From the NCBI GenBank assembly GCA_020055645.1, contig CM034546.1, positions 59,334,001-59,398,000 of the forward strand: 64,000 bases of DNA. Direction: 5' to 3'. The stretch's first letter is position 1. Every line of letters starts with the position of its first letter. The notes below the pieces were generated by a model. The model did no database searches and was not told the DNA's origin. It worked only from the letters and a program-made list of their open reading frames with translations. The stretch is from Tomocerus qinae. Its lineage: Eukaryota > Arthropoda > Collembola > Entomobryomorpha > Tomoceridae. Position numbers and translations under genes: made by a program. Of this stretch, positions 14,386-52,745 are shown piece after piece.

Positions 14386-17236
14386 TCAATGGGAGAGATG
14401 TAATAATTCTCCATTCACCCAGAATTTACAACTGCCATATCTTTTTGTGGTAGTGTAATAACTTACTAACCCCGGCAGACTTTTGTCTACCATATCCAAA
14501 AACCCATTTAAAGCTTTATCATCGAAGTACATTTTCCTTAGTCTGTAAACCATTTCCACACACTCATCATGAGCATCCATAAGCATATTCTGGCCTTCCT
14601 GTAAGGCCTCGTTTAATTGATTGGTGTTTTTATAATTCCAATAAATCATGTTATCGTAATCGTCGTTTGCCAATTCTCTGGCAAATCCCATTAGGTCATT
14701 AAGACACGTGGAATACGTTCTTATTTGGTCACGTAGCAATTGAAAAACGGGATCGGCCTTAATCATTGGATTTAGAGTCAGTCCGTGCAAAATTGCACAA
14801 AGATCATAATGAAAACCTGCCCCAAATCTCTGTTCTCTGAAGTAGTAAAGACTTCTTTTCTGAGCTGTTTCATATTTTGGGTGATAAGTCACCCACCAGA
14901 TGAAAGTTAGAAGGTAAGTCCGCATATGTTCAACAAATGTGCCGTGAACCCTTTCTTCCAAGTAGAAGGGTCTGTAGTCTATTAAATGCTCTACAAATCT
15001 CTTTAGCAATGTAAGCTGCCTATTTAATAGCCAATTAAAACTGGGTGCTGCCTTCATTATGTTGTTGTCACAAGGTTTTGCTTGTAATAAGTCAATACAA
15101 GTTTCAGCAAACATTTTCAATTCTTTCACGTCAAAAGAATTTGCCTGCTTTTCGTCCGAAAATAAATAATTGTCAATTGTATCATCAACAAAGAAGAAAA
15201 ATACTAGGAACATCGTGTAGATATATCCTGAGCGTGACGATGAATCGAAACCACTACACTCCTCTGCTATACGAGACAGTCGCATTTTTCTGAAATGTTT
15301 CAACTCCTTCCTCATCTTTTCTTCGTCTTTGGAGAAATATCCAATTTCTATCAATTCATTCGCCAATTTCTCATCCAACATTTCACATTTTTCTACCGAT
15401 TTTTTCTGTCCGGGATAGTCCAATGGAACTGAGGTCTTGAAGCGAATCCGAATATTCTCTCCATTTTCAGTGACATGACTTGTGTTGTTCATTTCCATCT
15501 CCAATTCAACATACTTGCAACCCTCGAAGCAGAAGCACCGCTTTTCAGTAACTGAAAATCACGATTAAAAATTAGCATGCTAAGATAGTGACATCTAAAA
15601 TGAAACATTGTTACATTTTACAAAATGAAATCTCCAGAACTGCTGTAAAATACTGGAAATACAACTCTTTGTTTTATATTTCAGTGAAAATCTATGACAA
15701 TATCTGGATTCTTCAAACCCGGAATTAAACTCGGGTTTCAAATATAATAATTGTTTGTTATTTGACATAAATATTGGTATTAAATTTTTCGAATGCATAC
15801 CAAGCCGTATGGATTTGAAACTTCAATAAGTTAAATAATACTTAAATTCCTCTGTAAACGTTAAAAATGTCAAAATTAACAAATTTAATTTAATAATTTC
15901 ATCTGCTACTTCTACTTTTAACCTTATTAATACAATAATAGCCTGTGAAGAAATATCTTAAGCTCAATGTGTAAGAGATCAAATTATGACCAAGCCATAT
16001 TTGTAACTGGTGACCACACGACCATCTAGATTTGAAAACACACATTTATTTTATATAAAACAACCTGACTAACTTAAAATTAGGCATTTCACAACGTTTA
16101 CTCTGCTTTTCACGTTTTTAAAAGGCCTACTAAGTTTGACTTAATTCATTTAGTCATTTCACTCTTATAAAAAATAGGAGCAAAATTTTCATTTATGGGG
16201 AGCTTAACCCTAATTCATAATTTATTTGGGTTTCCTGTATAATTGCTTATCTTCTTATCTCTTTTTAATTTGAGTTCAAAACCCCTATAAATGTTCCTGT
16301 GAAATCGGGCAGTATCCGTGGATATTTAAAATCTCTTAATACTGACTAAGTAGAACAAAATATTAAATTAAACCACGCTTAAAATGATTATGGCCAATTT
16401 GCGCTTTATTGTGTTATATTAGTCATAAAAATTAACTGACGTTGGAATCCAAATGCTCAAAGCAATAGATTATGTTTAATATTATACAGTTCCATCTTAT
16501 TGATTTTGTAGGTTTTGTAGCCCTTGGCATTCAATGCTCAATGAGTCAAAATGTCTGGAAATAGAATTGATCATTATCTATGTCTTGCAAAACTCGGTTT
16601 CTGGTTTTAATCCAGTTTTATCCAAACAATTATTTTAATCGAGGCGTTGTAAACCAGTTGAAACCACGGTTTGGAAGCCTTAATATTGATTTCAAACCAC
16701 TACGTTTATAGGGATACAAAAAACTTTTTAAATCAAAGTGATACATAATACTTTAATGGCTACTTTAAATGAATAATATACAAAGTTGGTCGTTCAAGAC
16801 ATAGTGAAAATAGAGTTTCCCTTTCACATTGATTTGGAATTGACTTAAGCAGTTTAGATCCAAAACATAAAACTTTGTTTTCACTGTGTCCTGAACAGCA
16901 AACTTTATGCAATGCTTTACTATATTAATTGTTATATCTTGTATGATAACGTTTGTTTGCTTTAAAATATAAATAAATTTTCTTCAGTGTAAAATCTGAA
17001 ATCCGTAAATTAGTTTTTGATGAAGCCATAGCTGTAAATTAACGAAAGACATTGTTTTAACAGGAGACTAAAATAATAAAAACATTTGTAAGGAATATTG
17101 CAATTGAAAAATTTAACTGCCTTGTTTGAAAAATATTGAACTTTGAATTTTACATTCTAATTTGAAATTTTTATGGCAAAGAAGCCAGCAAAAAGAGCAA
17201 ATTATGATGTTAAAATAAAAAGTTACCTTTCTCCAT
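14386..17236 (-). CDS. Class I terpene synthase, TPS1
   Basis: Two coding exons on the minus strand: exon 1 is the 10-nt ATG-GAG-AAA-G (17236-17227, donor GTAACT); exon 2 is 15551-14386 after acceptor TTTTCAG. Together they give 391 residues. Class I hallmarks: the aspartate-rich metal motif VDDTID (D126, D127, D130), an NSE-type motif NDLMGFARE (N288 to E296) with Gly instead of Ser/Thr at the third ligand, an Arg in YFREQR about 46 residues before the NSE motif (diphosphate sensor position), and a C-terminal RY pair (TTKRYG). These residues bind three magnesium ions and the diphosphate of a prenyl diphosphate. The short single-domain form is that of microbial-type terpene synthases. Product unknown; probably a C15 or C20 terpene. 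A start at the in-frame ATG at 15498 without exon 1 is the alternative. Confidence 0.85.
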
Positions 17237-17860
17237 GTCTTATCACGGGAATCTTGAACTATTACATTCGCCAAGCATTTGCCGATGTTCCAATCTTCAG
17301 TATCGCAGTTTTATTCTATCCAGATGAGAGATTCTAGAATGCCAAATTAAAGTAAAACAAAAAAGTTGTATTGCTTTGCATTTAATCATTCCATCTATCT
17401 ATTTATTCCATTTATATGCTAATTCAAAATCCTATTTACATGCAAATACGTATAGCTGGTTACATTTATTATGCCTACTATCCTTATTATATTATGACTG
17501 ACCTTTCCATCATGCAAGTCATACAACATCATAATATTTTATAACCTAAAACTAAGTTGATTGTAATGCATTGCGTCAGCGTGCATACCTAACCAATAAT
17601 CGTATGCTGATTTGAGTGAAGATGAACACGTACCGTTCTTTCAATCGGACGGCACTAAATTGTAAACTTTTATGAGCAGATCAAGGAATTATAATTCTGC
17701 TCATTTAGTCGAATAATAAAAATGATTTGTATTTATTTTCTTTCGAGGAAGAGATGGTTAGGTCCAAACGCAATATTTCAAAATTTAACCAAAATCTTTG
17801 TAAAATTCAATAGCAATAAAGGTTTCCTAGTAATATAATAAACCATGTCCAAATGGATGT
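17237..17860. other. Upstream region of TPS1
   Basis: Non-coding; contains the TPS1 promoter by position. Nothing else recognised. Confidence 0.4.
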
Positions 17861-17861
17861 A

Positions 17862-18276
17862 AAAAAGTGGTGTAAAATTGCATAAAAAGTTTGAATTGAT
17901 TATCTGACTTTACAAGGCTTTTTAAGTGAATTTTTCAATGACCTTTGACCTTTTGACACGTGTGACTTGACTTTGATATGGTCTAAGGACTAAACTTTTC
18001 GAACGAGCTATCTCATGACGTTCTACAATGTCAATAACTAAAGTTATAACAATTTTTAATTTTTGGACCACGCCCAAAGGCAGGGGGTGTATTCGATTTT
18101 GTCCATTTTCGAACTCGGCCTTCGTTTTTTGTCCCTACATTACGTATAGTGAGTTTGAGTTGATTATGTCAAACGGTTTTTGAGTTATCGTGCTAACAGA
18201 CAGACGGACGGACGGACGGACGGACAGACAGACAGATCAGGCATTCCTATAAAGCGGTGTTGCACACCACTTAAAA
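17862..18276. repeat. Interspersed element with GGAC microsatellite
   Basis: The ends resemble each other in inverted orientation (AAGTGGTGT at the left, ACACCACTT at the right). The right part has an anonymous stretch rich in TTTGAGTT motifs followed by a GGAC/AGAC tetranucleotide array at about 18198-18236. A non-autonomous mobile element is likely, but no target-site duplication was established. Confidence 0.5.
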
Positions 18277-18620
18277 TTGATTTGGTATCTCAATACGTAA
18301 CTAGATATTCGTAATAAAAAAATTAATTCAAGTTTTTTCAATTCAATGGAAATTTATTTCAATTCAAGTTAATTTTATATGATATTTTAATTACATAATT
18401 TATGATTTCATTAAAATATTTTTAAGCCAAAAATATACGGCATTGTTAAAAACTGCATCGTTGTACATTATATGTACAAAGTTTTAAAACAGTGAGATAT
18501 ATTGTCAAACATATCTAATACTATCAACAATTTTCGTAGTCGGAGTTGCCGATACTATTTGATTAATAATTGTTGATAAATAAACATAATCATAATATTA
18601 AATCATTTTTTCATGTTAAA

Positions 18621-20150
18621 TTAATCATTGATGTGTAATAATTCCCCATTCATCCAATATTTACAGCTGCCATACCTTTTCGTGTTGGTGTAGTAAGTTA
18701 CCAGACCCGCCAGAAATGTTTCTACTATATCTGAATACTTACTTAGTGTATTATCGCAATACATCTTCCGGAGTCTATGAATCATTTCTAGGCATTCATC
18801 ATGTGCATCCATAAACACATTCTGACCTTCTTGCAAAGCGTCTTTCAGTTTATTGTTATTTTTATAGTTGCAATAAATCATGTTGTCGTAATCGTCCTGC
18901 AATATTTCTCTAGCAAGTCCCATAAGGTCGTTAAGACATGCAAAGTAAGTTCTAACTTGATAGCGAAATAATTTAAAAACGGGGTCACTCCTAATAATAG
19001 GCTGTATATTCAGTCCATGTAAAATGGCACAAAGGTCGAAAAGAAGATCAACTCCAGACCTTTGTTCTCTGAAGTAATAGAGGCTTCTCTTTTGAGCGGT
19101 TTCATCTTTCGGGTGATAAGTCACCCACCAAATGAAACACAAAAGGTATGTCCTCATATGTTCTGCAAATATTCCATGAACCTTTTCTTCTAAATAGTCT
19201 TGTCTGTACTTTATTAAATGGTCAACAAATCTGCGTAACAAAATTAACTGCCTATGTAATTGCCAATGAAAGTTTTGAGTGTTAATCTCACATGATTTTC
19301 CTTTCAAAATTTCAGTACAAGTTTCTGCAAAAGCTTTTAACTCATTAGGGTCAAAGGAATGTGTTTGTTTTTCGTCCAAGTACAAATGATTGTCAATTGA
19401 ATCATCTACAAAAATAAAAAATGCTAGGTACATCACGTAAATGTATCCTGCTGGTGTGGATGGATCAAATCCACTACACTGTTGTCCTATATATGAGACT
19501 CCCATTTTTCTGAAATGTTTCAACTCCTTTTCCATCAATTCTTTATCTTTGGGAAAATATCCGATTTCTATCAATTCATTTGCCAATTTTTCATCCACCA
19601 GTCGACATTTTTCTATTGATATTTTCTGTCCGGGATAGTCAAATGGAATTGAGGTCTTGAAGCGTATCCGAATATTTTCACCAGATTCAGTGACATGACT
19701 TGTGTTGTTCATTTCCATCTCCAATTCAGCATACTTGCAACCAACAAAGCAGCGCTTTTCAGTGACTGAAATAATTTTTAATAAGGATTATCAAACAAAG
19801 GCATTATCATTGCTAACACTCTGATTTATAAATTAATGCAACTGAAACATGCTGGTATTTTATATCTTCCTTGTATAGAACTTGGCAATTGCATAATTAT
19901 TGTACTTCTTAATAATGCATGAGTTCGCTAAAATTATTTATGATTTCCCTACTTCATATCTTTACATTTACTTAATAGTATGTAAGTTAAAGATTGGTAT
20001 ATAGTCGCTGCCTTGCTCTACTTGGATAATTGACATTGGTTTTAAAATTAGTACTATTTTATATTTTAAGGAGCGCTAATTAAGGTCGAAAGAAGATAAA
20101 ATTATATTAAACTGACTTCCATAGCAAATAAAATAATTACCTTTATCCAT
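18621..20150 (-). CDS. Class I terpene synthase, TPS2
   Basis: Exon 1 is ATG-GAT-AAA-G (20150-20141, donor GTAATT); exon 2 is 19765-18621 after acceptor ATTTCAG; 384 residues. The intron is 375 bp, against 1675 bp in TPS1. The metal motif is VDDSID (about D124-D128), the NSE-type motif NDLMGLARE is followed by DDYDNMIY, and YFREQR and KRYG are in place, so the active site looks complete. It is a close paralogue of TPS1 and TPS3. A fold-back repeat is inserted about 15 bp upstream of the ATG, so its transcription start may lie in or beyond that element. Product unknown. Confidence 0.85.
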
Positions 20151-20165
20151 GTTTTATTGGTTCTA

Positions 20166-22728: not shown

Positions 22729-24522
22729 TGATTCTTTTTAAGTATGTACATTTTACATGTTACACAGTTACACTATAGTTTTACACAAATGTGTTAAACA
22801 AGACCACAGCAGATATTTACATTAAACGCCTCCCCCAAAATGGCGCAAAAAAATCAATATTTATCTTCAAATTTTAAAAATTGCTCGTGCACAAGAAAAT
22901 TATATTTTTCGTTGCTTAATATTTTTAATAGAATATTAATATTATTGAAAGCAGTTTATTTAGAAAAGTTTATCGTGTCCGTAGACGAATACTATTTCCG
23001 TCAGTTACTGATTAGGTTTTTATCCCTGTCCACGATAGCTTTTGAAGATTTAGCTAGAGTGAATTTTTAAAGTACAACCTACAAGTAAATACGAGGCCCA
23101 AATTGGTGAATAGGCTCATTTGCTCGGTCACGTCCAGACCCTCTGACAGGTGGAGAGTTTCAAAAGTTAAAAATTGCTAAAAGTCAATGTCACTTTGGTT
23201 CTATCAATCGTACATCATGCAACAGTAGTCAGTAAGTTAGGCAGCTAAAATGTAGTGTGACACTAATAAATTGAGTTTTAATCCTCCCCTGATAGGGGAT
23301 GTGTGGGTGAAAACCTTTAATTAAAAGTCGATATATATTCATCGCTCAAAGTCGTGGAACAGCTCGATTGAATGTTGACACGACAACAGACACTATTAAA
23401 TAGGTTACAGTCAACCCCTGACAGGGGCAGGGGTGAAAAACTTATAACAACTGAAAATGACTATAACTTCGGTTATATTCATTGTACAAAGCAGTACACT
23501 AGCTGGATTGAAAGCTGATAGTTCAATAGAAATCACTATCTAGGTGGCCGTCATTCCCTGATAGGAAATGGGTGAAACATTTGCAAACAAATAAATGTCG
23601 TCTATTACTTCGGCTTTTATCATAGTGATTCTTTTTAAGTATGTACATTTTACATGTTACACAGTTACACTATAGTTTTACACAAATGTGTTAAACAAGA
23701 CCACAGCAGATATTTACATTAAACGCCTCCCCCAAAATGGCGCAAAAAAATCAATATTTATCTTCAAATTTTAAAAATTGCTCGTGCACAAGAAAATTAT
23801 ATTTTTCGTTGCTTAATATTTTTAATAGAATATTAATATTATTGAAAGCAGTTTATTTAGAAAAGTTTATCGTGTCCGTAGACGAATACTATTTCCGTCA
23901 GTTACTGATTAGGTTTTTATCCCTGTCCACGATAGCTTTTGAAGATTTAGCTAGAGTGAATTTTTAAAGTACAACCTACAAGTAAATACGAGGCCCAAAT
24001 TGGTGAATAGGCTCATTTGCTCGGTCACGTCCAGACCCTCTGACAGGTGGAGAGTTTCAAAAGTTAAAAATTGCTAAAAGTCAATGTCACTTTGGTTCTA
24101 TCAATCGTACATCATGCAACAGTAGTCAGTAAGTTAGGCAGCTAAAATGTAGTGTGACACTAATAAATTGAGTTTTAATCCTCCCCTGATAGGGGATGTG
24201 TGGGTGAAAACCTTTAATTAAAAGTCGATATATATTCATCGCTCAAAGTCGTGGAACAGCTCGATTGAATGTTGACACGACAACAGACACTATTAAATAG
24301 GTTACAGTCATCCCCTGACAGGGGCAGGGGTGAAAAACTTATAACAACTGAAAATGACTATAACTTCGGTTATATTCATTGTACAAAGCAGTACACTAGC
24401 TGGATTGAAAGCTGATAGTTCAATAGAAATCACTATCTAGGTGGCCGTCATTCCCTGATAGGAAATGGGTGAAACATTTGCAAACAAATAAATGTCGTCT
24501 ATTACTTCGGCTTTTATCATAG
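22729..24522. repeat. Tandem duplication, 897-bp unit, two copies
   Basis: Positions 22729-23625 and 23626-24522 are nearly identical; I noticed one substitution (A at about 23415, T at about 24312). Each copy contains a 76-codon open frame (22840-23070 and 23737-23967, start MAQKNQYLSS) and three internal CCCTGA(T/C)AGG motifs. The near identity means a recent event or an assembly duplication. The small open frame resembles no family I know and may be fortuitous. Confidence 0.85.
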
Positions 24523-25469
24523 TGCAAAGTCCGCAATGGTTTATTTGCTTTTTATAGGTTTATTCTTTTTGTCTGTCTAGCTGTTTAACAATTTGAAGTT
24601 ACAGTTACACTAAGAAGTTACAACATTGTCTTATAACTAGATAGAAAAGAGCAAAAGGACATAATAACTATATAAGGACTTGAAATATGAAATTTGAGGA
24701 AATAAATACAATGTTATGAATTAATTCAGAGACTGAAGGTATCTTTTCCTTTTGCCTATCAATCTGGAAATTGCTGTGCATGATAAAAGTTTTGAACAGT
24801 TTAAGCTAGGAAGTTCAAATGTTTAGAAAACCACAAAGTCTAAAAACGCAAAAAATGACTAAAATAGTAATATTTTTTCTCGGTTCCGCCGCCTCCGAAA
24901 TTTTCAGCCTAAAGTGGGTAAAAATTGATATAACTTAAGTCATTTGTGATATATTCATCATACAAACCCATTTAATTGGGTCTCAGATATCAGATATTAT
25001 TGCCTTTTGTATTTTGTCTACGTTATGCAATTGCTCATATAAAAGTACACACAATAAAATGAGAAAAACACACACTAAGCCTTATTTTTCGAATTGCTTG
25101 TAATTCAAAGAAACGATAATATACAGTACCATAAAAGACTATTATTACATCAACTTAATTTAAGAATTTCTTTTAGAAGAATTGGTTAAGGTTAAGTATC
25201 CTTATAATCAATTTTTATAAAAACTATGTCAGACTTAATTTAGAACAGTATAGATGAAATCGTTGTTAAATCAAAAATCGTACAATATAATTCTGTCACA
25301 TTTTGTCATCATAAAATGTAACTAATATATTCCTACGTTCAAGTGGCTTAACATTAAAATAAATAGTTAATTATGCGCAGGAATGACAGGGATATTACAC
25401 ATGAATAAAATATAATCACATAATACAAAAAATTTAATTGCAAGTTGTAATATAAGTCTCGAAATACGC
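24523..25469. other. Intergenic region
   Basis: No gene recognised. It may include the 3' part of the transposon at 25.5-28.1 kb; its terminal repeats were not found. Confidence 0.35.
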
Positions 25470-28083: not shown

Positions 28084-29260
28084 TTTCTAAGTGCCGGAAA
28101 ATCAAAGTTTGACAGATATTCCATAATAATTATTTAATTTAAAACATATGTGTAATAAAACAAAAGGCTACGTTGGAGCTGATGTAGTGAAAACAGTACC
28201 TTAATAACTAATTTTTAATTTTACAATGTATTTGCCATATAATATTTTCCAGTAATTATTGGGAATTACATATTACATTTATAATCATGTGACAGCCAGA
28301 ATAATTATTGATAAAATTCATCTATATTTTGATAAAACAAGTCTTAATAAGTTTTATAAAATTCATTGTTTAATTAACAGAAAATGATTAATATTTTAGA
28401 CTTATAATTTGCAAACAATTTAAAAAACAAACAATACACAGAGATGAGGAATATTAACCTTTTGGTTTAATAAACGACATAATATTTAGCAAGTCACAGT
28501 GCGAACCCCCCAAACAACCTTTACAAAATTTTGATTAATGCTCAGTAGCTTTTGCTTCATAAATACAATTTTACTTAAAAGTGCATTTGGCTTCCTATTC
28601 CAAGAGGATTCGACGAAATGAATTATAACATAAAATAAGTACCTTTGCAATAATTCCAAAACTTATTAATTATCACAAGTCTTAAAGTTTAAATTGTGCC
28701 ATAAAATATCGAATTGTAACAAAAAATTGTAGGGCACAAATTACGCTGGCAAAAAAGCATGCAAAATACGTTTACAACATTCATTGTTGGAAACGGGTAC
28801 AGTAACAGACTAGAATCAGTATTTTCATGCTAGAAACTATTCTTTATAAAACTCAAAGTTGTAAAGTTGAAATATGATCAGTGACAAAAATCATAATAAT
28901 TTTTATTTACCGGATGCTGTGATAGATAAATTAGCTGTCATTATTAAAATTATTTTATAGTATATATCAATATCAGGCTTTTCAAATTCACAAGTGTCTC
29001 AACACAATAAAGAACAACATCAATAACATCAATTCATCGTCACATGACAAAATATCAACAACAAAAGTTAAAGGTCATGTCATTCAAAGCCGTTCGAAAA
29101 AGATATATGCAGAGAGAGTGAGTGGATAATACACATCTATAGACACAACTACAGAACAAGTAAATTTAATTCAACAGCTCTTTACTTTCCATTACCAAAT
29201 GCAGTTTCAGCCAAACACTGTTGGGAGTTTAAATTTAGAGCGCAAAACAAGCTAATATGC
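28084..29260. other. Intergenic region
   Basis: AT-rich, no gene recognised. It should contain the 5' end of the transposon to the left, and its junction with the first zinc-finger cassette. Confidence 0.4.
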
Positions 29261-29778
29261 TCCAAACAGTGTGCTTACTATGAGAACAGGCAAACGAGAG
29301 CAATCCATTTGGTTTCACTCATAAAAGGGTTCACTCTGGCGAAAAACCTTACATGTGTGAGTTTTGTGGAAAGGAATTTGCACGACAAGGTGCTAAGAAA
29401 AGGCACGCAAGAGGTCATACTGGAGAACGACAATATAATTGTGAGGTTTGTGGTAAGGGATTTAATGAACAATGGAATCTAAAATTACATAAAAGGGTTC
29501 ACACTGGCGAAAAACCTTATATATGTGAGTTTTGTGGAAAAGGATTTGCGCAGAAAAGTAGCTTCAATGACCATGTTCGAATCCATACTGGCGAAAAGCG
29601 TTACAAGTGTGCATTTTGTGGAGAAGGATTTGCATGGAGACCTAGTTTGAATCAACACATTAGAACTCATACAGGAGAAAAGCCTTATAAGTGTGAATTT
29701 TGTGGAAAGGAATTTGCATATCAAAAAGCAAAGAAAAAGCACGTTAGCACTCATACAGGCAAAAAGAACTTAATGTAA
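29261..29778 (+). pseudogene. Zinc-finger relic of cassette 0
   Basis: Five C2H2 fingers in an open frame from 29353 (MCEFCGKEF...) to 29778 (KKNLM-stop), with H-TGE(K/R)-type linkers and a degenerate finger piece before them. The end matches the final fingers and KNLM terminus of the gene at 42376-44491. ZAD exon, middle exon and the N-terminal part of the finger exon are missing, so this is a 5'-truncated copy. It is convergent with a TPS relic, as in the other cassettes. Confidence 0.75.
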
Positions 29779-30354: not shown

Positions 30355-31195
30355 TCAAGTCAGTTGGAGTAACTCTCCATTCACCCAATATTTAGAGCTG
30401 CCATACCTTTTTGTAGTAGTGTAATAAGTTACTAGACCAGCGAGAAATTTTTCTAACATATCCAAAAACCCAATTAATGTTTGATCATCATTGTAGTACA
30501 TCTTACGAAGTCTTTTTGCCATCTTCAAATATTCATCATGTGCATCCATAAGAATAGTCGATTCGATTCGATTGCAAGGCTTTTGATAATTGATTGTCAT
30601 TTTTATAGTTGAAATAAATCATGTTATCGTAATCGTTATTTGCCAATTCTCTTGCAAATCCCATTAGGTGATTGAGACAAGTCGAGTACGTTCTAATTTC
30701 TTCAAGCACCAATTTAATACTGGATCAGCTTTAATCATTGGATTTAAAGTCAGTCCATGCAAAATAGCACAAAGATCATAATGGACATCAACATTACATC
30801 TTTGTCAGGCACGTATCCAGGAATTTGACCTAGGGGGGGCACCAAAATATATTAATAAAATTAAGGTATATTCGCGCGAGGCGCGAAATTTTTTTGAATT
30901 TTTAACCTTTTTAGACAAAAAATTGCCTTTTTCTGGATACTTAGAGGGGGCCAGGGCCCCCCTCTGGATACGTGCTTGATCTTTGTTCTCTGAAGTAATA
31001 GAGATGCATTTTCAGAGCAGTTCCATCTTTCGGGTGGTAAGCCACCCAGCCACCAAACAAACGTCAGAAGGTATGTCATCATATTCTCCACAAAAGTGCC
31101 ATGAACTCGTTCTTCAATGTAGCAAGATCTAAACTCTATTAAACGATCCACGAATCTGCGTAAGAATATTAACTGCCTATTTAGTTGCCAATGAA
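30355..31195 (-). pseudogene. Terpene synthase relic of cassette 0
   Basis: It matches the C-terminal two thirds of TPS3: GELLQLT end, KRYGSS, YDNMIYFN, ELANND, TLNPMIKADP, YFREQR and the FVDRLIEFR region. It carries frame breaks near 30555 and 30700 and a MITE insertion at 30806-30978. Homology stops at the FHWQLNRQL codons (about 31195), the same point as in the other two relics; the DDxxD half is gone. Confidence 0.85.
30806..30978. mobile_element. hAT-like MITE, CAAGCACGTATCCAG family, copy 2
   Basis: 173 bp, from CAGGCACGTATCCAGG to GGATACGTGCTTG, flanked by the 8-bp duplication ATCTTTGT (30798-30805 and 30979-30986). The intact TPS3 gene reads CATCTTTGTTCTCTGAAG at this place (about 51675), which is the empty site. 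The insertion therefore came after the TPS sequence. Confidence 0.93.
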
Positions 31196-31199
31196 AACA

Positions 31200-34487: not shown

Positions 34488-34642
34488 TATAGTGTTTTAA
34501 CCCAAACCCCATTTTGAAGCGTCAAAGGACCTGGTAAATGAATTTTCTTCTTGGTTATTAGGTAAAGGGTAGCGATACGTCAAGTCGGCTTCACAAAGAC
34601 TGACGACAAAAGTTGAAAGCCACTAAAAAGATTTGAAACGCT

Positions 34643-34782: not shown

Positions 34783-34941
34783 GAAACGCTTATTGAATAT
34801 TTTTCGTTTCAGACCATTTGGGGTCGATTTAAGTGACTCAAAATGCATTTTCCTTGACCATACGTTCAGAATAGTCATTCTTTGTATTTGTATTTGCCTA
34901 TAGGTAAAATCTCAAAAACATCAAAACTGAAAACAAGAAAA

Positions 34942-37809
34942 ATGAACCTAATTCAAGACTGTATCCTGTGTTACAATGAATTCGAAGAAGGAATAGCGCC
35001 CTGTAGTGACACTCAGAATTTATCTGAAGTCTGTTGCAAATATTTGCATCCTTTAATAACACAAAAGATTTTGTCAAGTCATTCCAGTCGAGATAATTTA
35101 CCGCTCTGTCCGAAATGCTTCGAATCTGTCGTGGAACTGAAGGATCTTAATCAGCAGTTGGCATTTCTTCAAACAAGAATTTCAGAATTAGTTTTCATTC
35201 GTTCATTGGAAATTCTTCATCATCGTGGAAAAAGTAACAGTAGAGACGACAATAGACCAAAAGATGACAATTTGGAAAGACAAATATTATTAATCGAACT
35301 TGATGTTTCAACTTTACCAAATTGCGATTTTTCGAAAGTGAATTCTAATGTCCCGAAGGGTATTGTAATTGTAACATCCGAAGAGAATTATAATGTTAAC
35401 AACCCTGTTGAAGATACTGGTTTCGAAGAAGGTCCAGAATCATTGCTCATTCCTTTGTCAGATATCAACACTGTGGATGTAACATTTGAAACAATAAAAG
35501 TGGAGTGGGATGAAGTGGATTTGATTAATAACATTCATGGAATGAACTATATACCCGAAAACGTTGATGCAGATTTATGTGTTGAAAAGTCACAACAGAT
35601 TTCAGGTTTTTTCTACTGTCAACGCTAAAACCAAAAGAAAGAATCCCGTTCTGAAATTTCAGAGTAAGTACTTATTAAGCTCACAAACTACGTGTTTCGA
35701 ATAATTCGTAACGATTATTGAAAACCAATGCCACATATAAAAATTTTAATCTAAATCACATTTGTATAGAACTGAATTATTGCGAGAAAATAATATCGAT
35801 AAAAGAAAAGCAGGATAATTTTGGAGCTGAAGATGAAGATAGTCAAAATATACAAATAGAAGGGACTGAAAAAGCTCCCGGGGGCAACTTAGAAATTGCT
35901 GATGCAAGTAAAATATCTTCCGATGGCTGGTAAATTTAAATTATTTTTGCTTTTTTTAAAAAGCTTTTTAAAAAAAGTTCCTAAAAATGACTAAATTATG
36001 TATTTATATATTTCTAGTTTTAACGGATCATCCCAAAATTGTGTTTCAACTATAAAGTTGGGGTCGTTATCTAGTCAGCAGATATCGGAGGAAAAAGATC
36101 AAAATGCTGCAAGTGCATCGACATCTGGGATTATTAGTAGTTCAACTAGTGAATTGGGAAACCAGAATAGTCATTTGATTGAATCGGTCAGCAAAAATGT
36201 CCATTGCCAAGTGATTGACGAGGAGCAACAAGAATTGCAAGAGGTTCTCCCAGAAATTCATGCCAAGAAAAATGATTCTAAGAACGATCTGTCTAACGAA
36301 AGCAAAAATAGATGTCGAAGAGTATTACGGTCAAAAATAGGTCATGTAGATAGAGGGAAAATTAATTACAAGTCGGCGGCTTGTGGGAAGGGATTTGGTC
36401 AGCAATATGGTGATCTAAAAAAGCATGAAAGAGTCCACTCGGAAAAAAGATCGGTGCACACCGGCGAAAAACGTTTTCAGCGTGAATTGACTGATGCGAG
36501 TAAAATATCTTCCGATGGCTGGTAAAATTGAAATGGTTTTTTCCTTTAAAAAAACTTTTTTTAAAAGGTTCCTAAAAATGACTAAATTATGTATTTATAT
36601 ATTTCTAGTTTTAACGGATCATCCCATAATTGTGTTTCAACTGTGAATTTGGGGTCGTTTTCTAATCAGCAACTATCAGAGGAAAAAAATCCTGCAAGTG
36701 CAACGACATCTGGGACTATTAGTAGTTCAACCAGTGAATTGGGAAACCAGAATAGTCATTTGATTGAATCGGTCAGCAAAAATGTCCATTGCCAAGTGAT
36801 TGACGAGGAGCAACAAGAATTGCAAGAGGTTCTCCCAGAAATTCATGCCAAGAAAAATGATTCCAAGAAAGACTTGTCTAACGAAAGCATAAATAGATAT
36901 CGAAGAGTATTACGGTCTAAAATAGGTCGTGTAGATAGGGGGAAAACTAATTTGAAGTGGGCAGCTTCCAGGAAGGGATTTAGTCATCATCGTGGTCTAA
37001 AAAAGCATAAAAGAGTCCACTTGGAAAAAAGATCGGTGCACACAGGCGAGAAACGTTTTCAGTGTGAATTTTGTGGCAAAGGATTTCTAAGGAAAGTTGA
37101 TTGGAATGATCATGTTATTAGGAGTCATACTAAAGAGAAACCTTATAAATGTGAATTTTGTGCAAAAGGATTTGTCACAAAAAGGGAATTGAATCTTCAT
37201 GTTATTAGAATTCATCCGGATACTGAAGTACGACCTTATAAATGTGAAGTTTGTGGTAAAGGATTCAAAAAACATCGTAATCTAAAAGTACATAAAAGGG
37301 TGCACACTGGCGAAAAACCTTACATATGTGAGTTTTGTGGAAAAGGATTTGTCACAAAAAGGGAATTGAATCTTCATGTTATTAGAATTCACCCGGATAC
37401 TGAAGTACGACCTTATAAATGTGAGGTTGGTGGTAAAGGATTCAAAAGACATCGTAATCTAAAAGTACATAAAAGGGTGCACACTGGCGAAAAACCTTAC
37501 ATATGTGAGTTTTGTGGAAAAGGATTTCTAAGGAAAGGTGATTGGAATGATCATGTTATTAGGAGTCATACTAAAGAGAAGCCTTATAAATGTGAATTTT
37601 GTGCAAAAGGATTTGTCACAAAAAGGGAATTGAATCTTCATGTTATTAGAATTCATACGGATACTGAAGTACGACCTTATGAATGTGAGGTTTGTGGTAA
37701 AGGATTCAAAAAACATTGTAATCTAAAAGTACATAAAAGGGTACACACTGACGAAAAACCTTACATATGTAAGTTTTGTGAAAAAGGATTACGCAGAAAG
37801 GTAGTTTGA
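34942..37809 (+). pseudogene. ZAD zinc-finger gene of cassette A, with exon duplication and breaks
   Basis: Copy of the gene at 42376-44491. The start is the ATG at 34942 (MNLIQDC), conserved in all copies; an in-frame ATG at 34882 is upstream. Exons: 34942-35663, 35770-35929, 36018-36521, 36609-37809. The ZAD exon has the Cys pairs CILC and CPKC but gains one T near 35607-35612, shifting the frame. The finger exon is duplicated with a 591-bp offset: the first copy breaks off at KRFQRE and jumps to the end of exon 2 (DASKISSDGW) with a new donor. The second copy encodes eight or nine fingers, one with its second zinc Cys replaced by Gly (CEVGG). A 1-bp loss near 37790 ends the frame early (LRRKVV-stop), while finger homology continues to about 37910. 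Confidence 0.8.
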
Positions 37810-38439: not shown

Positions 38440-39010
38440 TGTATATACCTTTTTGTAGGAGTTTAATAAGTTACTAGGCCAGCGAGAAATGTTTCTACTA
38501 ACATATCCAAAAACCCAATTAATGTTTGATCATCGTAGTACATCTTACGAAGTCTTTTTGCCATCTTCAAATATTCAGCATGTTCATTGTGCATGCATCC
38601 ATAAGAATAATCTGACTTTCTTGCAAGATAATTGATTGTCATTTTTATAGTTGAAATAAATCATGTTATCATAATCGTTATTTGCCAATTCTCTTGCAAA
38701 TCCCATTAGGTCATTGAGACAAGTCGAGTACGTTCTAGTTTCGTCAAGCACCAATTTAAATATTGGATCAGCTTTAATCATTGGATTTAATGTCAGTCCA
38801 TTCAAAATGGCACAAAGATCCTAATGGACATCATGGACCGTCTTTCGGGTGGTAAGCCACCCACCAAACGAACGTCAGATGGTATGTCCTCATATTCTCT
38901 ACAAAAGTACCAAGAAACTCGTTCTTCAATGTATATAGCAAGGTCTAAACTCTATTCTTTAGACGACTCATGAATCTGCTTAAGAATATTAACTGCCTAT
39001 TTAGTTGCTA
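38440..39010 (-). pseudogene. Terpene synthase relic of cassette A
   Basis: Recognisable pieces of TPS3 in order: FLDM-like C-terminal region, RKMYYDD, YDNMIYFNYKNDNQL, NDLMGFARELANND, TLNPMIKADP, then the FREQR-to-VHGTF region with deletions, ending at the NWQLNRQL codons. Several frame breaks. The DDxxD half is missing and the 5' breakpoint equals that of the other relics. Confidence 0.8.
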
Positions 39011-39019
39011 ATGAAAACA

Positions 39020-41453: not shown

Positions 41454-42375
41454 GTCTGGTAGGAGCTTAGATTATATAAATAGTACACGGGTAGGAGTCA
41501 CAAGTCGCCAAGCTTAAAGTTGTTTGAGTTGTCCTCATTGACATAGTAGTGTGTTGTTAGAGTGTATGTGTACAAGTAAATTCCGCGTCATTTAAATCGA
41601 CTGGATGCATATCACATTGTAGAAACAAAAACAAATATCATTTCCTGTCATATCACACCTATGACCTACATTCAGCATTGTGTACACTTACTTCTTAATA
41701 CTTTTGACCTTAAAGTTAATTAAGTAGTCCAACATCCAATGAGTTGAATTCGTGTATATTCATTTCAATTTGTGTTTTATCATACATACACGTACAATAT
41801 AGTGTTTTAACCCAAACCCCATTTTGAAGCGTCAAAGGACATCTGGTAATAATGAATTTTCTTCTTGGTTATTAGGTAAAGGGTAGCGATAAGTCAAGTC
41901 GGTTTCACAACGACTGACGACAAAAGTTGTAAGTCACTAAAAAGATTTGAAATGTTTATTGAATATTTTTCGTTTCAGACCATTTGGTTGGGGTCGATTC
42001 AAATGTAATAATTTTGAATTTTTATCGCTGGTGGACTCAATCCGGCCACTTCTAGAGGAAAATTATATTTTAATACTATCTTACATGGCACTTGCACTGG
42101 CAGCTATAAGCTTGTATCCAGTTCAAATACATCATTTTCAGCCGTGTCAGAAATAAACATACCACTCATGACTCAACAGACCACATTCAAGAATAAAATT
42201 TAAATAATAATAATTGCTTCAGGTCTTCAAAAATATCCAAAGATTTTTTTTTACGTTTTAGTGATTTTCAAAAACTATTTTGTCAACTCCGACATCGCTA
42301 CAATACGTTCAGATTAGTAATTTTTTGTATTTACATTTGCCTAGGTAAAATACTAAAAACATCAAATCAAGAAAA
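41454..42375. promoter_or_regulatory. 5' flank of the cassette B zinc-finger gene
   Basis: Shared with 32340-32582 plus 34488-34941 (cassette A) and about 46960-47751 (cassette C). The conserved block TTTTAACCCAAACCCCATTT near 41802 and a TTTCGTTTCAGACCATTTGG block near 41970, which contains a possible 5' UTR splice acceptor, suggest a shared promoter and leader. Confidence 0.5.
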
Positions 42376-44491
42376 ATGAACCTAATTCAAGACTGTATCC
42401 TGTGTTACAATGAATTCGAAGAAGGAAGTGCACCCTGTGGTGACACTCAGAATTTATCTGAAGTCTGTTGCAAATATTTGCATCCTTTAATAACACAAAA
42501 GATTTCGTCAAGTCATTCCAGTCGAGATAAATTACTGCTCTGTCCGAAGTGCTTCGAATCTGTCGTGGAACTGAAGGACCTTAATCAGCAGTTGACGTTT
42601 CTTCAAGCAAGAATTTCAGAATTAGTTTTCATTCGATCATTGGAAATTCTTCATCGCCGTGGAAAAAGTAACAATAGAGACGACAATAGACCAAATGATG
42701 ACAATTTGGAAAGGCAATTATTATTAATCGAACTTGATGTTTCAACTTTACCAAAATGCAATTTTATGAAAGTGAATTCTAATGTCCCGAAGGATATTGT
42801 AACATCCGAAAAAAATTATGATCTTATCAACAACCCTGTTGAAGATATTTGTTTCGAAGAACTTCCAGATCCATTGGTCATTCCTTCGTCAGATATCAAT
42901 ACTGTGGACGTAACATTTGAAACAGTAAAAGTGGAGGGGGATGAAGTGGATTTGATTGATAACAGTCATGGAATAAACAATATACCCGAAAACCTTGATG
43001 CAGATTTATGTGTTGAAAAGTCAAAACAGATTTCAGACATTTCTACTGTCAACACTAAAACCAAAGGTAAGAATCTCATTCTGAAACGCCAGAGTAAGTA
43101 CTTACGTTCACAAACTACGTATTTCGAATAATTCGGTACGACTATTCGTAACCAATACCACATATAAAAATTTTAATCTAAATAACATTTCTATAGAACT
43201 GAATTATTGCGAGAAAGTAATATCGATACAAAAAAGGCAGGATAATTTCGCAGCTGAAGATGGTAAAAGTATACAAATCGATGGGGCTGAAAAAGCTCCC
43301 GGGGCCAACTTTGAAATTGCTGATGAAAGTAAAATATCTTCGGATGGCTGGTAATTGTTTTTTGCTTTTAAAAAAGCTTTTTTTAAAAGATTCCTAACAA
43401 TGACTAAATTATGTATTTATATGTTTTTTAGTTTTAACGGATCATCCCAAAATTGTGCTTCAACTATGAATTTGGGATCGTTGTCTAATCAGCAGATATC
43501 GGAGGAAAAAAACCCTGCAAGTGCAACGACATCTGGGAGTATTTGTAGTTCAACCAGTAAATTGGGAAACCAGAATAGTCATTTGATTGAATCCGTCAGC
43601 CAAGTGATTGACGAGGAGCAACATGAATTACAAGAGGTTCTCCCAGAAATTAATTCCAAGAAAAATGATTCCAAGAACGATCTGTCTTACGAAAGCAAAA
43701 ATAGATGTCGAAGAGTATTACAGTCTAAAATAGGTCATGGAGAAAGGGGAAAAATTAGTTTCAAGTGGGCGGCTTCCGGGAAGGGATTTGGTCAGCAATG
43801 TGATCTAAAAAAGCATGAAAGAGTCCACTCGGCAAAACAGAGTAATCTAAAAGCACTTAAAAAGGTGCACTATGGGGAAAAACGTTTTCATTGTGAATTT
43901 TGTGGCAAAGAATTTTTCACGAAAATGGGATTGTATCTTCATAATATAGAAATTCATACGGATAATGACGAACGACCTTATAAATGTGAGGTTTGTGGTA
44001 AGGGATTCAACCAACAATGTTATCTAAAACTACATGAAAGGGTTCACTCTGGCGAAAAACCTTTTATCTGTGAGTTTTGTGGAAAGGAATTTTCACGACT
44101 AGGTGTAAAGAATAGGCACACAAGAATTCATACTGACGATCGACAACATAATTGTGAGGTTTGTGGTAAGAGATTTAATGAAAAATGGAGTCTAAAAGTA
44201 CATAAAATGATGCACACTGGCGAAAAACCTTATATATGTGAGTTTTGTGGAAAAGGGTTTGTGCTGTCAAGTGGTTTGAATAACCATGTTAGAACTCATA
44301 CGGGCGAAAAGCTTTACAAGTGTGCATTTTGTGGAGAAGGATTTGTACAGAAAGCTGGTTTGAATCAACACATTAGAACTCATACAGGAGAAAAGCCTTA
44401 TAAGTGTGAATTTTGTGGAGTGGAATTTGCATCGCAAAGTGGAAAGTACAAGCACGTTAGCACTCATACAGGCAGAAAGAACTTAATGTAA
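42376..44491 (+). CDS. ZAD C2H2 zinc-finger protein (cassette B, intact)
   Basis: Three exons: 42376-43093, 43197-43350, 43432-44491; GT-AG junctions, phases agree, 643 residues. The first exon carries a ZAD-like domain: Cys pairs CILC (about residues 7-10) and CPKC (about 56-59) with CCKYLHPLITQKI between, then a leucine-rich helix (VELKDLNQQLTFLQARISELVF). ZAD domains bind zinc and make dimers. The last exon has one degenerate and seven standard C2H2 fingers joined by TGEKP-type linkers, so a sequence-specific DNA-binding nuclear protein is expected. It is the only copy of the four without a frame break. It faces the TPS relic of its cassette. Target sites are unknown. Confidence 0.87.
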
Positions 44492-45130: not shown

Positions 45131-45545
45131 TCAACTGAGTTGTAATAACTCTCCATTCACCCAATATTTAGGGCTGCCATACCTTTTTGTAGTAGTGTAA
45201 TAAGTTACTAGACCAGCGAGAAATTTTTCTAACATATCCAAAAACCCAATTAATGTTTGATCATCGTAGTATATACATCTTACGAAGTCTCTGAAGATCA
45301 AAATGGACATCAACAGTATATCTTTGTTCTCTGAAGTAATAGAGATTTCTTTTCAGAGCAGTTACATCAGTTTCATCTTTCGGGTGGTAAGCCACCCACC
45401 AAACGAACGTCAGCAGGTATGTCCTCATATTCTCCACGAAAGTGCCATGAACTTGTTCTTCGATTTAGAAAGGTCTAAACTCTATTAAACGATCCACGAA
45501 TCTGCGTAAGAATATTAACTGCCTATTTAGTTGCCAATGAAAACA
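45131..45545 (-). pseudogene. Terpene synthase relic of cassette B
   Basis: The C-terminal 60 codons (GELLQLS end, KRYGSPKYW) are followed, after an internal deletion at about 45290 that removes the whole NSE region, by the FREQR to FVDRLIEFR segment and the NRQL codons. The 5' half is missing at the same breakpoint as in cassettes 0 and A. Not functional. Confidence 0.82.
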
Positions 45546-46790: not shown

Positions 46791-47751
46791 TCCTTAAGGG
46801 ACGATAACGATAATATACCTTTCGGGTTAATCTGATCGCAGATTTTGCGCAACCAATCAAAATCAGCGCTGAGGTTCACACACTTACCCATCCCTGCCTT
46901 TGCTTGCTTGACAGGACCTTTTGTCTTAGTGTGATGGAGAGTAAGAGTGTATGGCGACAAGTAAATTGCAAATACTTGTAAGTGACCGCGTTATTTAAAT
47001 CGACTGGATGCATATCACATTTTGTAGGAACAAAAGCAAATCTCAATTACATCCAATCCTGTCAGTGTCACATCTCACCTGCTTTGCTGTGTGTACAATT
47101 ACTTCTTGTTTGACATTAAATTTAATTAGGTAGTCCAATGAGTTGAATCCGTATATATATAGCCATTTTAATTTGTGTTTTATCTTACATTACACGTGTA
47201 TTATATTATTTTAACCCAAACCCCATTTTGAAGAGGCAAAGGACCTGGTTACTGGTTAATGAATTTTCTTTTTGATTATTTATTAGGCAAGGGTAGCGAT
47301 GTCGGCTTCACATATTTTTCGTTTCAGACCATTTGGATTGGATTCAAATGATATTATCGGTGCGCGGTGGGGAGACTCAATCCGGCCCCTTCTAGGGGCA
47401 AATTATATTTTAAAATTATTATTATCTCACAAGGCAGGTATAACTTCTATCCAGTCCAAATACATCACTTTCAGCCATTTCAACAGTAAATATACCACTC
47501 AACACACCAGGCACATTAAGAACAAAAGTTTCGAATAATAATTTAATAATAAATAATTCAGGTCTCCAAAACTTTCCAAAATCAAAGTTTTAGTGGTATT
47601 CAAAAACTTTTTTGCGGACCCTGACATAGCTACTCTTATCAAAAATTATTAGGGATTAAAAATGCATTTTCCTTGAAAATACGTTCAGATTAGTGATTTT
47701 TTGTATTTATATTTGCCTAGGTAAAATCTTATAAACTTCAACTCAAGAAAA
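46791..47751. promoter_or_regulatory. 5' flank of the cassette C zinc-finger gene
   Basis: Duplicate of the flanks of cassettes A and B, including TTTTAACCCAAACCCCATTT near 47210 and TTTCGTTTCAGACCATTTGG near 47320. No gene is called; the frame at 47299-47538 is not conserved as protein. Confidence 0.5.
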
Positions 47752-50103
47752 ATGAACCTAATTCAAGACTGTATCCTGTGTTACAATGAATTCGAAGAAG
47801 GAATTGCGCCCTGTGGTGACACTCAGAATTTATCTGAAGTCTGTTGCAAATATTTCCATGCGTCAATAACACAAAAGATTTCGTCAAGTCATTCCAGTCG
47901 AGATAAATTACCGCTCTGTCGGAAATGCTTCGAATCTGTCGTGGAACTGAAGGATCTTAATCAGCAGTTGGCATTTCTTCAAGCAAGAATTTCAGAATTA
48001 GTTTTCATTGGATCATTGGAAATTCTCCATCGTCGTGGAAAATGTAACAGTAGAGACGACAATAGACCAAATGATGACAATTTGGAAAGACAATTATTAT
48101 TAATCAAACTTGATGTTTCAACTTTACCAAATTGCGATTTTACGAAAGTGAATTCTAATGTCCTGAAGGATATTGTAGCATCCGAAGAGAATTATAATGT
48201 TAACAACCCTGTTGAAGATACTTGTTTCGAAGAACTTCCAGATCCATTGTATATTCCTTCGTCAGATATGAATACTGTTGACGTAACATTTGAAACAATA
48301 AAAGTGGAGAGGGATGAAGTGGATTTGATTAATAACATTCATGGAATGAACAATATAATAACCGAAAACGTTGATGCAGATTTATGTGTTGAAAAGTCAA
48401 AACAGATTTTAGGTATTTCTACTGTCAACACCAAAACCAAAGGAAAGAATCCCATTCTGAAACGTCAAAGTAAGTACTTATGTTCACAAATTACGTATTT
48501 CGTATAATTCGGGATGAATAGTCAAAATCAATACCACACTAAATTTTATTAATCTAAATCACATTTCTATAGAACTGAATAATTATTGCGAGAAAACAAT
48601 ATCGATAAAACAAAGACAGGGCAATTTCGAAGCTGAAGATGGTCAAAATATACAAATCGATGGGACTGAAATAGCTCCTGGGGGCAACTTTAAAATTACT
48701 GATGGAAGTAAAATATGTTCCGATGGCTGGTAAAATTGAATTGTTTTTTTTTTTGCTTTTTAAAAAAAGCTTTTTTAAAATAAAGTGCCTAAAAATAACT
48801 AACTTATGTGTTTATATATTTCTAGTTTTAACGGATCATTCCAAAATTGTGCTTCAACTATGAATTTGGGATCGTTGTCTAATCAGCAGATATCGGAGGA
48901 AAAAAATCTTTTAAGTGCTTCGACATCTGAGACTATTTGTAGTTCAAACAGTGAATTGGGAAACCAGAATAGTCATTTGATTGAATCCGTCAGCACAAAT
49001 ATCGATTGCCAAGTGATTGACGAAGAGCAGCAGGAATTACAAGAGGTTCTCCCAGAAATTCATGCCAAGAAAAATGATTCTAAGAACGATCTGTCTAACG
49101 AAAGCAAAAATAGATGTCGAAGAGTATTAGGTTCTAAAATAGGTCATGGAGATGAAGCAAAATTAATTTAAAGGGATTTAGTCAGCAATGTCATCTGAAA
49201 AAGCATGAAAGAGTCCACTCGGAAAAAAGATCTCATATTTGTAAGGTTTGTGGCAAGGGATTTAATGAGCAAGGTCATCTAAAAGCACATGAAAAGGTGC
49301 ACACGGGCGAAAAACGTTTTCAGTGTGAATTTTGTGGCAAAGGATTTCTAAGGAAAGGTGATTGGAATGTTCATGTTATTAGGAATCATACTAAGGAGAA
49401 GCCTAATAAATGTGAATTTTGTGCAAAAGGATTTGTCACGAAAAGAGAAATGAATGTTCATGTTTTTAGAATTCATACTAGAGAGAAACCTTATAAATGT
49501 GATTTTTGTGCAACAGGATTTTTAACGAAAATGGAATTGAACGTTCATGTTATTGCAATTCATACGGATACTGAAAAACGACCTTATAAATGTGAGGTTT
49601 GTGGTAAGCAATTCAAACAGCAATGTTATCTGAAAAAACATAAAATATTACACACTGCTGTCGAAAAACCTTACAAGTGTGAATTTTGTCGGAAAAGCTT
49701 TGCAGAGCAAAGTGCTAAGAAAAAGCACGCAAGAATTCATACTAGACCTTATAAGTGTGAGTTTTGTGGCAAGGGATATAATGAACAATGTTATCTAAAA
49801 GTACATAAAATGATGCACACTGGCGAAAAACCTTACATGTGTGAGTTTTGTGGAAAAGGATTTGCGCAGAAAAGTAGCTTCAATGACCATGTTAGAACTC
49901 ATACTGGCGAAAAGCGTTATATGTGTGGATTTTGTGGAGAAGGATTTGTACTGAAAAGTGGTTTGCATCAACATATTAGAACTCATACAAGAGAAAAACC
50001 TTTTAAGTGTAAGTTTTGTGGAAAGGAATTTGCCCATCAAAGTCATTTAGGAAGGCATGTTAGAAGTCATACTGTCCAAACATCTAATCATTCAATTTTG
50101 TGA
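47752..50103 (+). pseudogene. ZAD zinc-finger gene of cassette C, frameshifted
   Basis: Exons 47752-48469, 48573-48729, 48826-50103. The ZAD exon and middle exon are open and in phase, as in cassette B. In the finger exon, a small deletion after SKIGHGDEAKLI creates a stop at about 49169-49171; the homology resumes in another frame at KGFSQQCHLKKHERVH and stays open to 50103. That second part encodes about ten good fingers with different finger-tip residues from cassette B. Either a truncated ZAD-only protein is made, or a downstream start (M at 49297) gives a nine-finger protein. One of the sister-gene segments lost here (KWAASGKG) is short, so a sequence error is less likely than a real deletion. 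Confidence 0.78.
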
Positions 50104-51238: not shown

Positions 51239-52745
51239 TCAACTGAGTTGTAATAACTCTCCATTCACCCAATATTTAGAGCTGCCATACCTTTTTGTAG
51301 TAGTGTAATAAGTTACTAGTCCAGCGAGAAATTTTTCTAACATATCCAAAAACTCAATTAATGTTTTATCATCGTGGTACATCTTACGAAGTCTCTTTGC
51401 CATTTTCAAATATTCATCATGTGCATCCATAAGCATAGTCTGACCTTCTTGCAAGGCTTTTGATAATTGATTGTCATGTTTATAGTTAAAATAAATCATG
51501 TTATCGTAATCGTTGTTTGCCAATTCTCTTGCGAATCCCATTAGGTCATTGAGACACGTAGAGTACGTTCTAATTTCGTCACGCACCAATTTAAATACTG
51601 GATCAGCCTTAATCATTGGATTTAATGTCAGTCCATGCAAAATAGCACAAAGATCAAAATGGACATCAACATTACATCTTTGTTCTCTGAAGTAATAGAG
51701 ATTTCTTTTCAGAGCAGTTTCATCTTTCGGGTGGTAAGCCACCCACCAAACGAACGTCAAAAGGTATGTCCTCATATTCTCCACAAAAGTGCCATGAACT
51801 CGTTCTTCAATGTAGCAAGGTCTAAACTCTATTAAACGATCCACGAATCTGCGTAAGAATATTAACTGCCTATTTAGTTGCCAATGAAAACTTGGCACAG
51901 GCGAGTCACAAGATTTTCCTTGCAATATTTCAGTACAAGTTTCTGCAAAATGTTTTAATTCTTTCACGTCAAAAGAATGTGTTTGTTTTCCATCCAAATA
52001 CAAATGATTGTCAATTGAGTCGTCAATAAAAATAAAAAATACCAGGTACATAACGTAAATGTATCCTGCGGGTGAGGAGGGATCGAATCCACTACACTCT
52101 TCTCCAATACTTGATACTCCCATTTTTAAAAAGTGCTTCAGCTCCTTTTCCATTAATTCTTCGTTTTGAGGGAAATATCCTATTTCTATCAGTTCATTCG
52201 CCAATTTCTCATCCACCTGTCGACACGATTTTAATGATTTCTTCCTATTAGGATAGTCCAGTGGTACAGATGTCTTGAAACGTATTCGAATATTTTCTCC
52301 AGTGCCAGTGACTTGGTGTGTGTTGTTCATCTCCATCTCCAATTCCACGTATTTGCAACCGATAAGGCAGCAAATTTCCGGGACTAAAATAGAGAATGGC
52401 ATACAATCATACAATTACATTTTGTGTTTACCTACGTTTTTACCAATTACCATAATTTAACTAGGACAGAAAGTGGAAATTGTTTTACAGAAAAGTTTTC
52501 ATGATTTAAAAAATGAAATAAAAAATAGTCGTTTTATGATTTCAAAAGTATTTGGAAGAAATTTTCAAGGCGGTTTATTAAATACAATATATTGGACACT
52601 GAATTTAAATAAAAAATTGACATGAACTTGATTTGGGTGCATAAGAATATATGCAAATGTGTATAATAGTAACCAGCGAAAGGTCAGTTTTCACAAGTTT
52701 TTGAAAACAGTATTATGTAATTAGTAATTAGTTACCTTTTCCCAT
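51239..52745 (-). CDS. Class I terpene synthase, TPS3
   Basis: Exon 1 is ATG-GGA-AAA-G (52745-52736, donor GTAACT); exon 2 is 52383-51239 after acceptor ATTTTAG; 384 residues. The start MYDCMPF... that an unspliced reading would give lies in the intron. Metal motif IDDSID (about D124-D128), NSE-type motif NDLMGFARE, sensor YFREQR, and C-terminal KRYG are all present. It is the parent-like sequence of the relics in cassettes 0, A and B and the only complete TPS of the four cassettes. It converges on the zinc-finger gene of cassette C. The product is unknown. Confidence 0.87.

Follow-up and report, generated by a model that had tools for sequence, protein, structure and literature searches.

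Predicted microbial-type terpene synthases in the nuclear genome of the springtail Tomocerus qinae

Microbial-type terpene synthesis is rare in animals. Canonical terpene synthases (TPS) of arthropods (Sciaridae, Acariformes and Collembola) were reportedly described by Chen et al. in 2024, with selected enzymes active; here we describe, in a 64-kb stretch of the Tomocerus qinae genome (C1:59334001-59398000, "the window"), three intact genes and three relics that, like the genes of that work, represent predicted microbial-type TPS in an arthropod nuclear genome. Trombidid mites have such enzymes as well, and the mite genes resemble the present family in being expanded and, as appears to be the case here too, laterally acquired, with two clusters per animal (orthomcl65 and orthomcl1284) and low identity to microbial relatives, at most 30% in the mites (PMC6275457). 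The mite enzymes have their relatives in Actinobacteria, in fungi and in further bacterial phyla, which for one cluster include Bacteroidetes (PMC6275457), and in this they differ from the window family. An earlier reading of this DNA, made from its letters alone (the sequence-only reading), had cited horizontally acquired genes in some mites as the precedent; this is right, and excerpts of PMC12105342 add one such TPS in a dust mite, but the prior art comes closer, since a fungus gnat is reported to carry five TPS genes transferred from mites (excerpts of PMC12051294). In the springtail Folsomia candida, antiSMASH gave two terpene-related clusters (PMC5490193, in part). Microbial-type TPS are already known in such animals, and the window genes add a case, a well-assembled one: a 140-Mb contig bearing an intron-containing, constrained and expanded family, with evidence for two gains.

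The intact genes (T1, T2 and T3) and the relics (R1, R2 and R3) all lie on the minus strand of the window, within a contig of 140.5 Mb (C1) in an assembly of 334.4 Mb and 115 contigs. In number and coordinates this agrees with the sequence-only reading, which had placed them at 14386..52745; the T1 stop codon ends at 14386, and the T3 ATG has its A at 52745. The intact genes are laid out as follows, in window coordinates:

14386..15551, minus strand: T1 exon 2, stop included; open frame; PF19086 41.3 bits; DDTID, NDLMGFARE, sensor Arg and RY; AG acceptor before 15551
17227..17236, minus strand: T1 exon 1, ATGGAGAAAG then GTAACT; phase-1 intron at 15552-17226
18621..19765, minus strand: T2 exon 2; protein of 384 residues including exon 1; PF19086 42.8 bits; motifs; acceptor
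20141..20150, minus strand: T2 exon 1, ATGGATAAAG then GTAATT
51239..52383, minus strand: T3 exon 2; protein of 384 residues including exon 1; PF19086 34 bits; motifs; modelled class I terpene synthase fold
52736..52745, minus strand: T3 exon 1, ATGGGAAAAG then GTAACT

Each first exon is ten bases long and stands directly before GTAA, and each second exon follows an in-frame AG acceptor located at the onset of DNA similarity among the three genes, with the frame kept across the junction; the genes are intron-bearing, as had been claimed. The pattern ATGGNNAAAGGTR occurs three times on the minus strand of the window, once ahead of each intact gene. By arithmetic, the T1 protein including exon 1 is 391 residues long, and the three proteins are 69–74% identical to one another.

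From predicted protein sequence and a structure model, we assign T1–T3 to the class I microbial-type TPS (PF19086, Terpene_syn_C_2), nuclear and with one intron each. All three exceed the curated cut-off of that family, 23.7 bits. The first metal motif, DDxxD, reads DDTID in T1 and DDSID in T2 and T3, and is kept in 8/8 full-length proteins of subfamilies A and B (defined below). The NSE-type motif is NDLMGFARE in T1 and T3 and NDLMGLARE in T2; 46 residues ahead of its Asn, at the spacing known for the diphosphate-sensor Arg, all three proteins carry an Arg, found in all eight A and B proteins. An RY pair lies near the C-terminus in each of the three. The four signatures named by the sequence-only reading (DDxxD, NSE-type motif, sensor Arg and RY) are therefore present, and the profile match supports the enzyme class. 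A model of T3, built on a 15-row alignment in which 12 rows were bacterial or metagenomic and 13–19% identical to T3, is predicted to adopt the alpha-helical class I terpenoid synthase fold in Foldseek and VIA comparisons (50 matches listed for each). A sequence search of solved structures with T1–T3 gave weak matches: the best was pentalenene synthase (E 0.019), closely followed by unrelated proteins.

The window genes belong to a larger family. A PF19086 search of the whole genome yielded at least 14 loci, all above the family cut-off and all on C1, in three subfamilies: A (T1–T3 and L012–L014), B (L021, L022 and L025) and C (L001–L003, L005 and L008). Identity to T3 is 21–23% for B and 16–18% for C, and comparing the profiles of A+B and C gave a weak match (probability 9.3%, E 0.0035). 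The T3 protein had 18 matches in the genome: six are the A genes, three belong to B and nine are segments of the relics in the window. All six A genes share the exon-1/intron arrangement, with exon 1 upstream in the three outside the window too, and because of this the intron is probably older than the A duplications. Synonymous divergence (dS) among T1, T2 and T3, at 0.92–1.01, suggests old duplicates. Pairwise ratios of nonsynonymous to synonymous divergence (dN/dS), from a simple pairwise count that is rough since many pairs have a dS of about 1 or more, were 0.16–0.42 in A (15 pairs), 0.22 in B (1 pair) and 0.21–0.32 in C (10 pairs), which indicates purifying selection. C1, with all 14 loci found, makes up 42% of the assembly. 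The third B gene (L025:1-2136) comes in two pieces, residues 43–152 and 149–391, about 1.05 kb apart, the split being either an extra intron or an insertion. Spliced A proteins begin with MEK, MDK or MGK and four of the five C proteins with MEK or MET, a likeness that is possibly chance or possibly a common leader.

Judged by its sequences, subfamily C is of bacterial type within an animal genome. DDxxD is absent at its place in 5/5 C synthases and in 5/5 bacterial-type relatives checked; the C synthases keep NDFFSFEKE (YDFFSFEKE in L003) and have a conserved GRD/N block near the DDxxD place. They nest among bacterial TPS of the Chitinophaga/Nocardia type, which lack DDxxD, at 31–38% identity (two C proteins listed) and with the shared motif NDxFSFEKE. 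Subfamily A is unlike this type, since it has DDxxD and, at -46, the sensor Arg. A tblastn search with C found a Nocardia plasmid terpene synthase (E 2e-32), and genome contigs, when scanned with the joint alignment and one peptide pattern, [NY]D[FL]FSFEK, returned 44 loci, 35 of them Bacteroidota by title, the pattern itself favouring that motif.

For A+B, matches to the joint profile were found in 3/195 genomes of one bacterial phylum (that of G002) and 1/396 of another (that of G001); in a third (that of G003) there were none in 395 genomes, where no positive control rang either. Nearest among the sampled kin are two Myxococcota proteins, L112 and L113 (from G104 and G102), which have DDALD, an NREQ sensor site and RY; they differ in being 21–23% identical and in the Ser of NDVFSLAKE, where A has Gly.

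Trees were built from 64 rows: 22 of the 44 pattern loci, 19 of 20 further loci, the 14 genome proteins, L038, L039, P0001, P0002, L112–L115 and L084. The main tree kept 53 (excluded: L084, B_L025, L044, L079, L041, L078, L100, L096, L107, L071 and L067) and a reduced tree 47 (additionally excluded: L103, L073, L105, L109, L112 and L113). In the 53-protein maximum-likelihood tree, C falls within a Bacteroidota clade, with Chitinophaga tropicalis and Niastella (96/94); A+B (100/99) join the two Myxococcota proteins (99/96), apart from C, a nearness that comes in part from selection, L112–L115 having been chosen as A+B matches. In the reduced tree C is linked less firmly to its nearest bacteria (67/90). 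A single A+B+C clade was rejected by the approximately unbiased (AU) test with 53 rows (p-AU 0.000134), and still without the Myxococcota pair and four long-branch rows (p-AU 0.00978), for a group chosen after the tree, where the test presumes one chosen before. This genome thus appears, from its sequences, to have gained terpene synthases at least twice. The sequence-only reading had proposed that the lineage gained and expanded one gene: the expansion stands, as the loci number at least 14 and form three subfamilies, but the single gain does not fit the rejected clade, post hoc as that grouping is. In the literature consulted, partly as excerpts and with Chen et al. 2024 not covered, we found no published report of two separate TPS gains in one springtail genome.

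Several points weigh against reading T1–T3 as terpene synthases of microbial type and outside origin. At the enzyme level, T1, T2 and T3 have Gly at a position of the NSE-type motif where Ser or Thr is usual. As for origin, A and B have no close microbial relative among word-sharing candidates drawn from 5.8 billion proteins: T1 had none at E<=0.001 among 946 candidates, and A+B none at E<=10 among 4355. In a plasmid search T1 and T2 found no relative and B (L022) one match at chance level (E 5), and two peptide patterns recovered no close relatives of A from genome contigs. The link between A+B and Myxococcota combines 21–23% identity, long branches and proteins picked as A+B-profile matches; similarly, the hhalign comparison of A+B with a bacterial TPS alignment reached a probability of 98.3% with eight bacterial rows, one of which (L115) was itself found by the A+B profile. 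TPS proteins of fungi, amoebae, mites and other springtails lie outside the sampling of the tree, and the AU test carries the reservation given above. Finally, the TPS of Folsomia candida are nearer to flea-beetle than to microbial ones (PMC6275457), and this likeness counts against any simple picture of microbial-type TPS throughout the springtails. On balance we hold with good confidence, from sequence and model, that T1–T3 are PF19086-kind class I terpene synthases of the nuclear genome, with the mechanism and origin set out below.

Among the alternatives, one to which we give a low probability is that A+B reached this lineage through another arthropod, such as a mite, instead of straight from a microbe: a TPS transfer from mites to gnats is on record (PMC12051294, in part), and for a different gene it has been suggested that springtails, gnats and mites exchanged it (excerpts of PMC13389597).

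That A, B and C all go back to one ancient acquisition, with A+B diverging very fast, seems unlikely to us. The three subfamilies are all of PF19086 kind, the 14 loci found share one contig (42% of the genome), and the AU result weakens (p 0.0098) once the long-branch rows and the Myxococcota pair are left out, the tested group being post hoc; yet both tests reject the clade, the two listed C proteins are 31–38% identical to bacterial matches as against 16–18% between C and T3, and C shares the absence of DDxxD at its place with all five bacterial-type relatives checked.

We find it quite improbable that the enzymes are prenyltransferases of terpene-synthase fold, using the same metal site to pass the prenyl group to another molecule so that no free terpene results. 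With DabA and KabA, TPS-fold N-prenyltransferases, as the comparison class, 48 of the 50 VIA matches listed and all 50 Foldseek matches listed are other enzymes (for VIA, the family may occur outside the matches listed); in RY motif and sensor Arg, the proteins agree with ordinary terpene synthases.

That the family derives from animal isoprenyl diphosphate synthases, the origin of TPS in insects such as flea beetles, can be given hardly any credence. The insect TPS of that descent (flea beetles, sandfly, termites) likewise perform class I terpene chemistry in animals and belong to a different family, which we take to be PF00348. This is the usual insect route (PMC12246896 and PMC6275457, the latter also for Folsomia candida; in part), but profile comparisons with PF00348 and by hhalign refute it here: 0/14 loci match PF00348 at E<=1, hhalign of A+B against L084, one of the animal's own prenyl synthases (a single sequence), gave 0.4% as against 98.3% with the bacterial alignment, and BLASTP of T3 against L084 gave E 1.1. 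Microbial contamination or an assembly artefact, for which no favourable point was found, is next to impossible and was rejected, in keeping with the nuclear location claimed earlier: the introns have GT-AG borders, the synthase-bearing 4-kb bins have a GC content of 0.314–0.329 inside the window range of 0.305–0.352, animal-type genes adjoin and separate the synthases with relics interleaved among zinc-finger genes, and the locus lies inside a 140-Mb contig.

Taking T1–T3 as terpene synthases, the animal itself may make terpenes with them. Its own prenyl synthases (13 PF00348 matches in the genome, candidate substrate suppliers) would provide a linear prenyl diphosphate; Mg2+ held by DDxxD and NDxxGxxxE would bind the diphosphate of the substrate, the sensor Arg and the RY Arg would close the active site, and on departure of the diphosphate the carbocation would cyclise or be quenched to a terpene serving cuticle, defence or signalling. 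Subfamily A would have come from a non-animal source prior to its own internal duplications, then acquired its intron and spread along a single chromosome; within the window, truncation of an old copy would have been followed by its multiplication along with the zinc-finger gene next to it. Subfamily C, which lies in other parts of the contig, would be a separate acquisition from a Bacteroidota-like donor.

A role in the springtail cuticle can be envisaged. Higher terpenes occur on the cuticle of 16/23 springtail species, unlike in insects, and were ascribed to the ubiquinone pathway, in a paper that also mentions squalene and lanosterol synthases and a putative squalene-hopene cyclase (PMC11321324, in part); in Heteromurus nitidus, a prenylated terpene of irregular type has been described (PMC11129290, in part). 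The passages of these two springtail-lipid papers available to us do not name the TPS family. The genes are, by their sequences, candidate enzymes for such cuticular terpene steps. The fuller scenario, with C from a Chitinophagaceae-like donor, A+B from an unnamed source with myxobacterial kin, and the families building the cyclised, irregularly prenylated higher terpenes of the cuticle, is a speculative one to which we give a small chance.

The relics and the zinc-finger genes beside them are arranged as follows:

30358..31196, minus strand: R1, TPS gene remnant (3' part) with a broken frame and an inserted element (tblastn with T3; nucleotide alignment)
38445..39016, minus strand: R2, 3' part of a TPS gene, with an internal deletion and stops (tblastn with T3; nucleotide alignment)
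45134..45542, minus strand: R3, 3' part of a TPS gene, with a large internal deletion and a stop (tblastn with T3; nucleotide alignment)
29284..29778, plus strand: C2H2 zinc-finger fragment of unit 1, convergent with R1 (open reading frame (ORF); DNA similarity to the other units)
34858..37809, plus strand: C2H2 zinc-finger gene of unit 2, convergent with R2 (ORFs; Pfam zf-C2H2; 87.6% DNA identity to unit 3 over 1595 columns)
42349..44491, plus strand: C2H2 zinc-finger gene of unit 3, convergent with R3 (ORFs; Pfam scan; self-comparison)
47725..50103, plus strand: C2H2 zinc-finger gene of unit 4, convergent with intact T3 (ORFs; Pfam scan; 76.1% DNA identity to unit 3 over 3077 columns)

The best tblastn segments with T3 scored 167 bits for R1, 136 for R2 and 154 for R3, against a top score of 25.8 bits across 20 dinucleotide-shuffled windows. 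All three relics are nearest to T3 and contain stops. They begin near one common coding base and are preceded by common unrelated sequence, and because of this they probably arose from a single truncated copy that was then multiplied. Self-comparison of the window showed that the multiplied unit also carries the plus-strand zinc-finger gene; the units span approximately 29.3–32.3, 34.8–40.1, 42.3–46.1 and 47.0–52.7 kb, the last holding an intact synthase (T3).

Left of the synthases lies an exon-split DOMON/copper monooxygenase gene, and C2H2 zinc-finger genes stand between them; the right flank inside the window gave zinc-finger matches below cut-off only (56319-56741). Within the repeat array, an inverted repeat (32579-33433 and 33637-34491; 855 bases, 99.6% identical, 203 bases between) is a recent fold-back element. 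A direct repeat of 899 bases (22729-23627 and 23626-24524) is 99.9% identical and runs head to tail. Two adjacent long frames, at 266-2857 and 4668-7261, encode about 860 residues with 84% DNA identity, the second shifting frame near 6300; neither has a Pfam match. The minus strand of 25470-28086 holds long, overlapping, broken frames, the longest with a weak HTH_23 match below cut-off and another without a match, which look transposon-like.

Elsewhere in the genome, a PF14226 search aimed at beta-lactam genes gave 19 matches. A mitochondrial stretch running from trnI to nad5 lies in the nuclear contig at C1:36669400-36676800 (L030, L031). Its cox1 frame is open when read in the invertebrate mitochondrial code, and the stretch is either a recent insertion into the nuclear DNA or a join made in assembly; cox1 also matched at C1:139.1-139.8 Mb and on C81 and C11. 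With tRNAs called by ARAGORN and protein genes named from their translations, the order of the stretch is I-Q-M-nad2-W-C-Y-cox1-L2-cox2-K-D-atp-cox3-G-nad3-A-R-N-S-E-F-nad5. The order cox1-trnL2-cox2 marks crustaceans and hexapods including Collembola and, in the excerpted account of 359 arthropod mitochondrial genomes, occurs in no chelicerates or myriapods (PMC3176236). A mite as host was rejected on this ground, and the look of the cox1 protein, together with published work on soil arthropods, suggests a springtail; the host genome has this order, unlike the chelicerates surveyed there.

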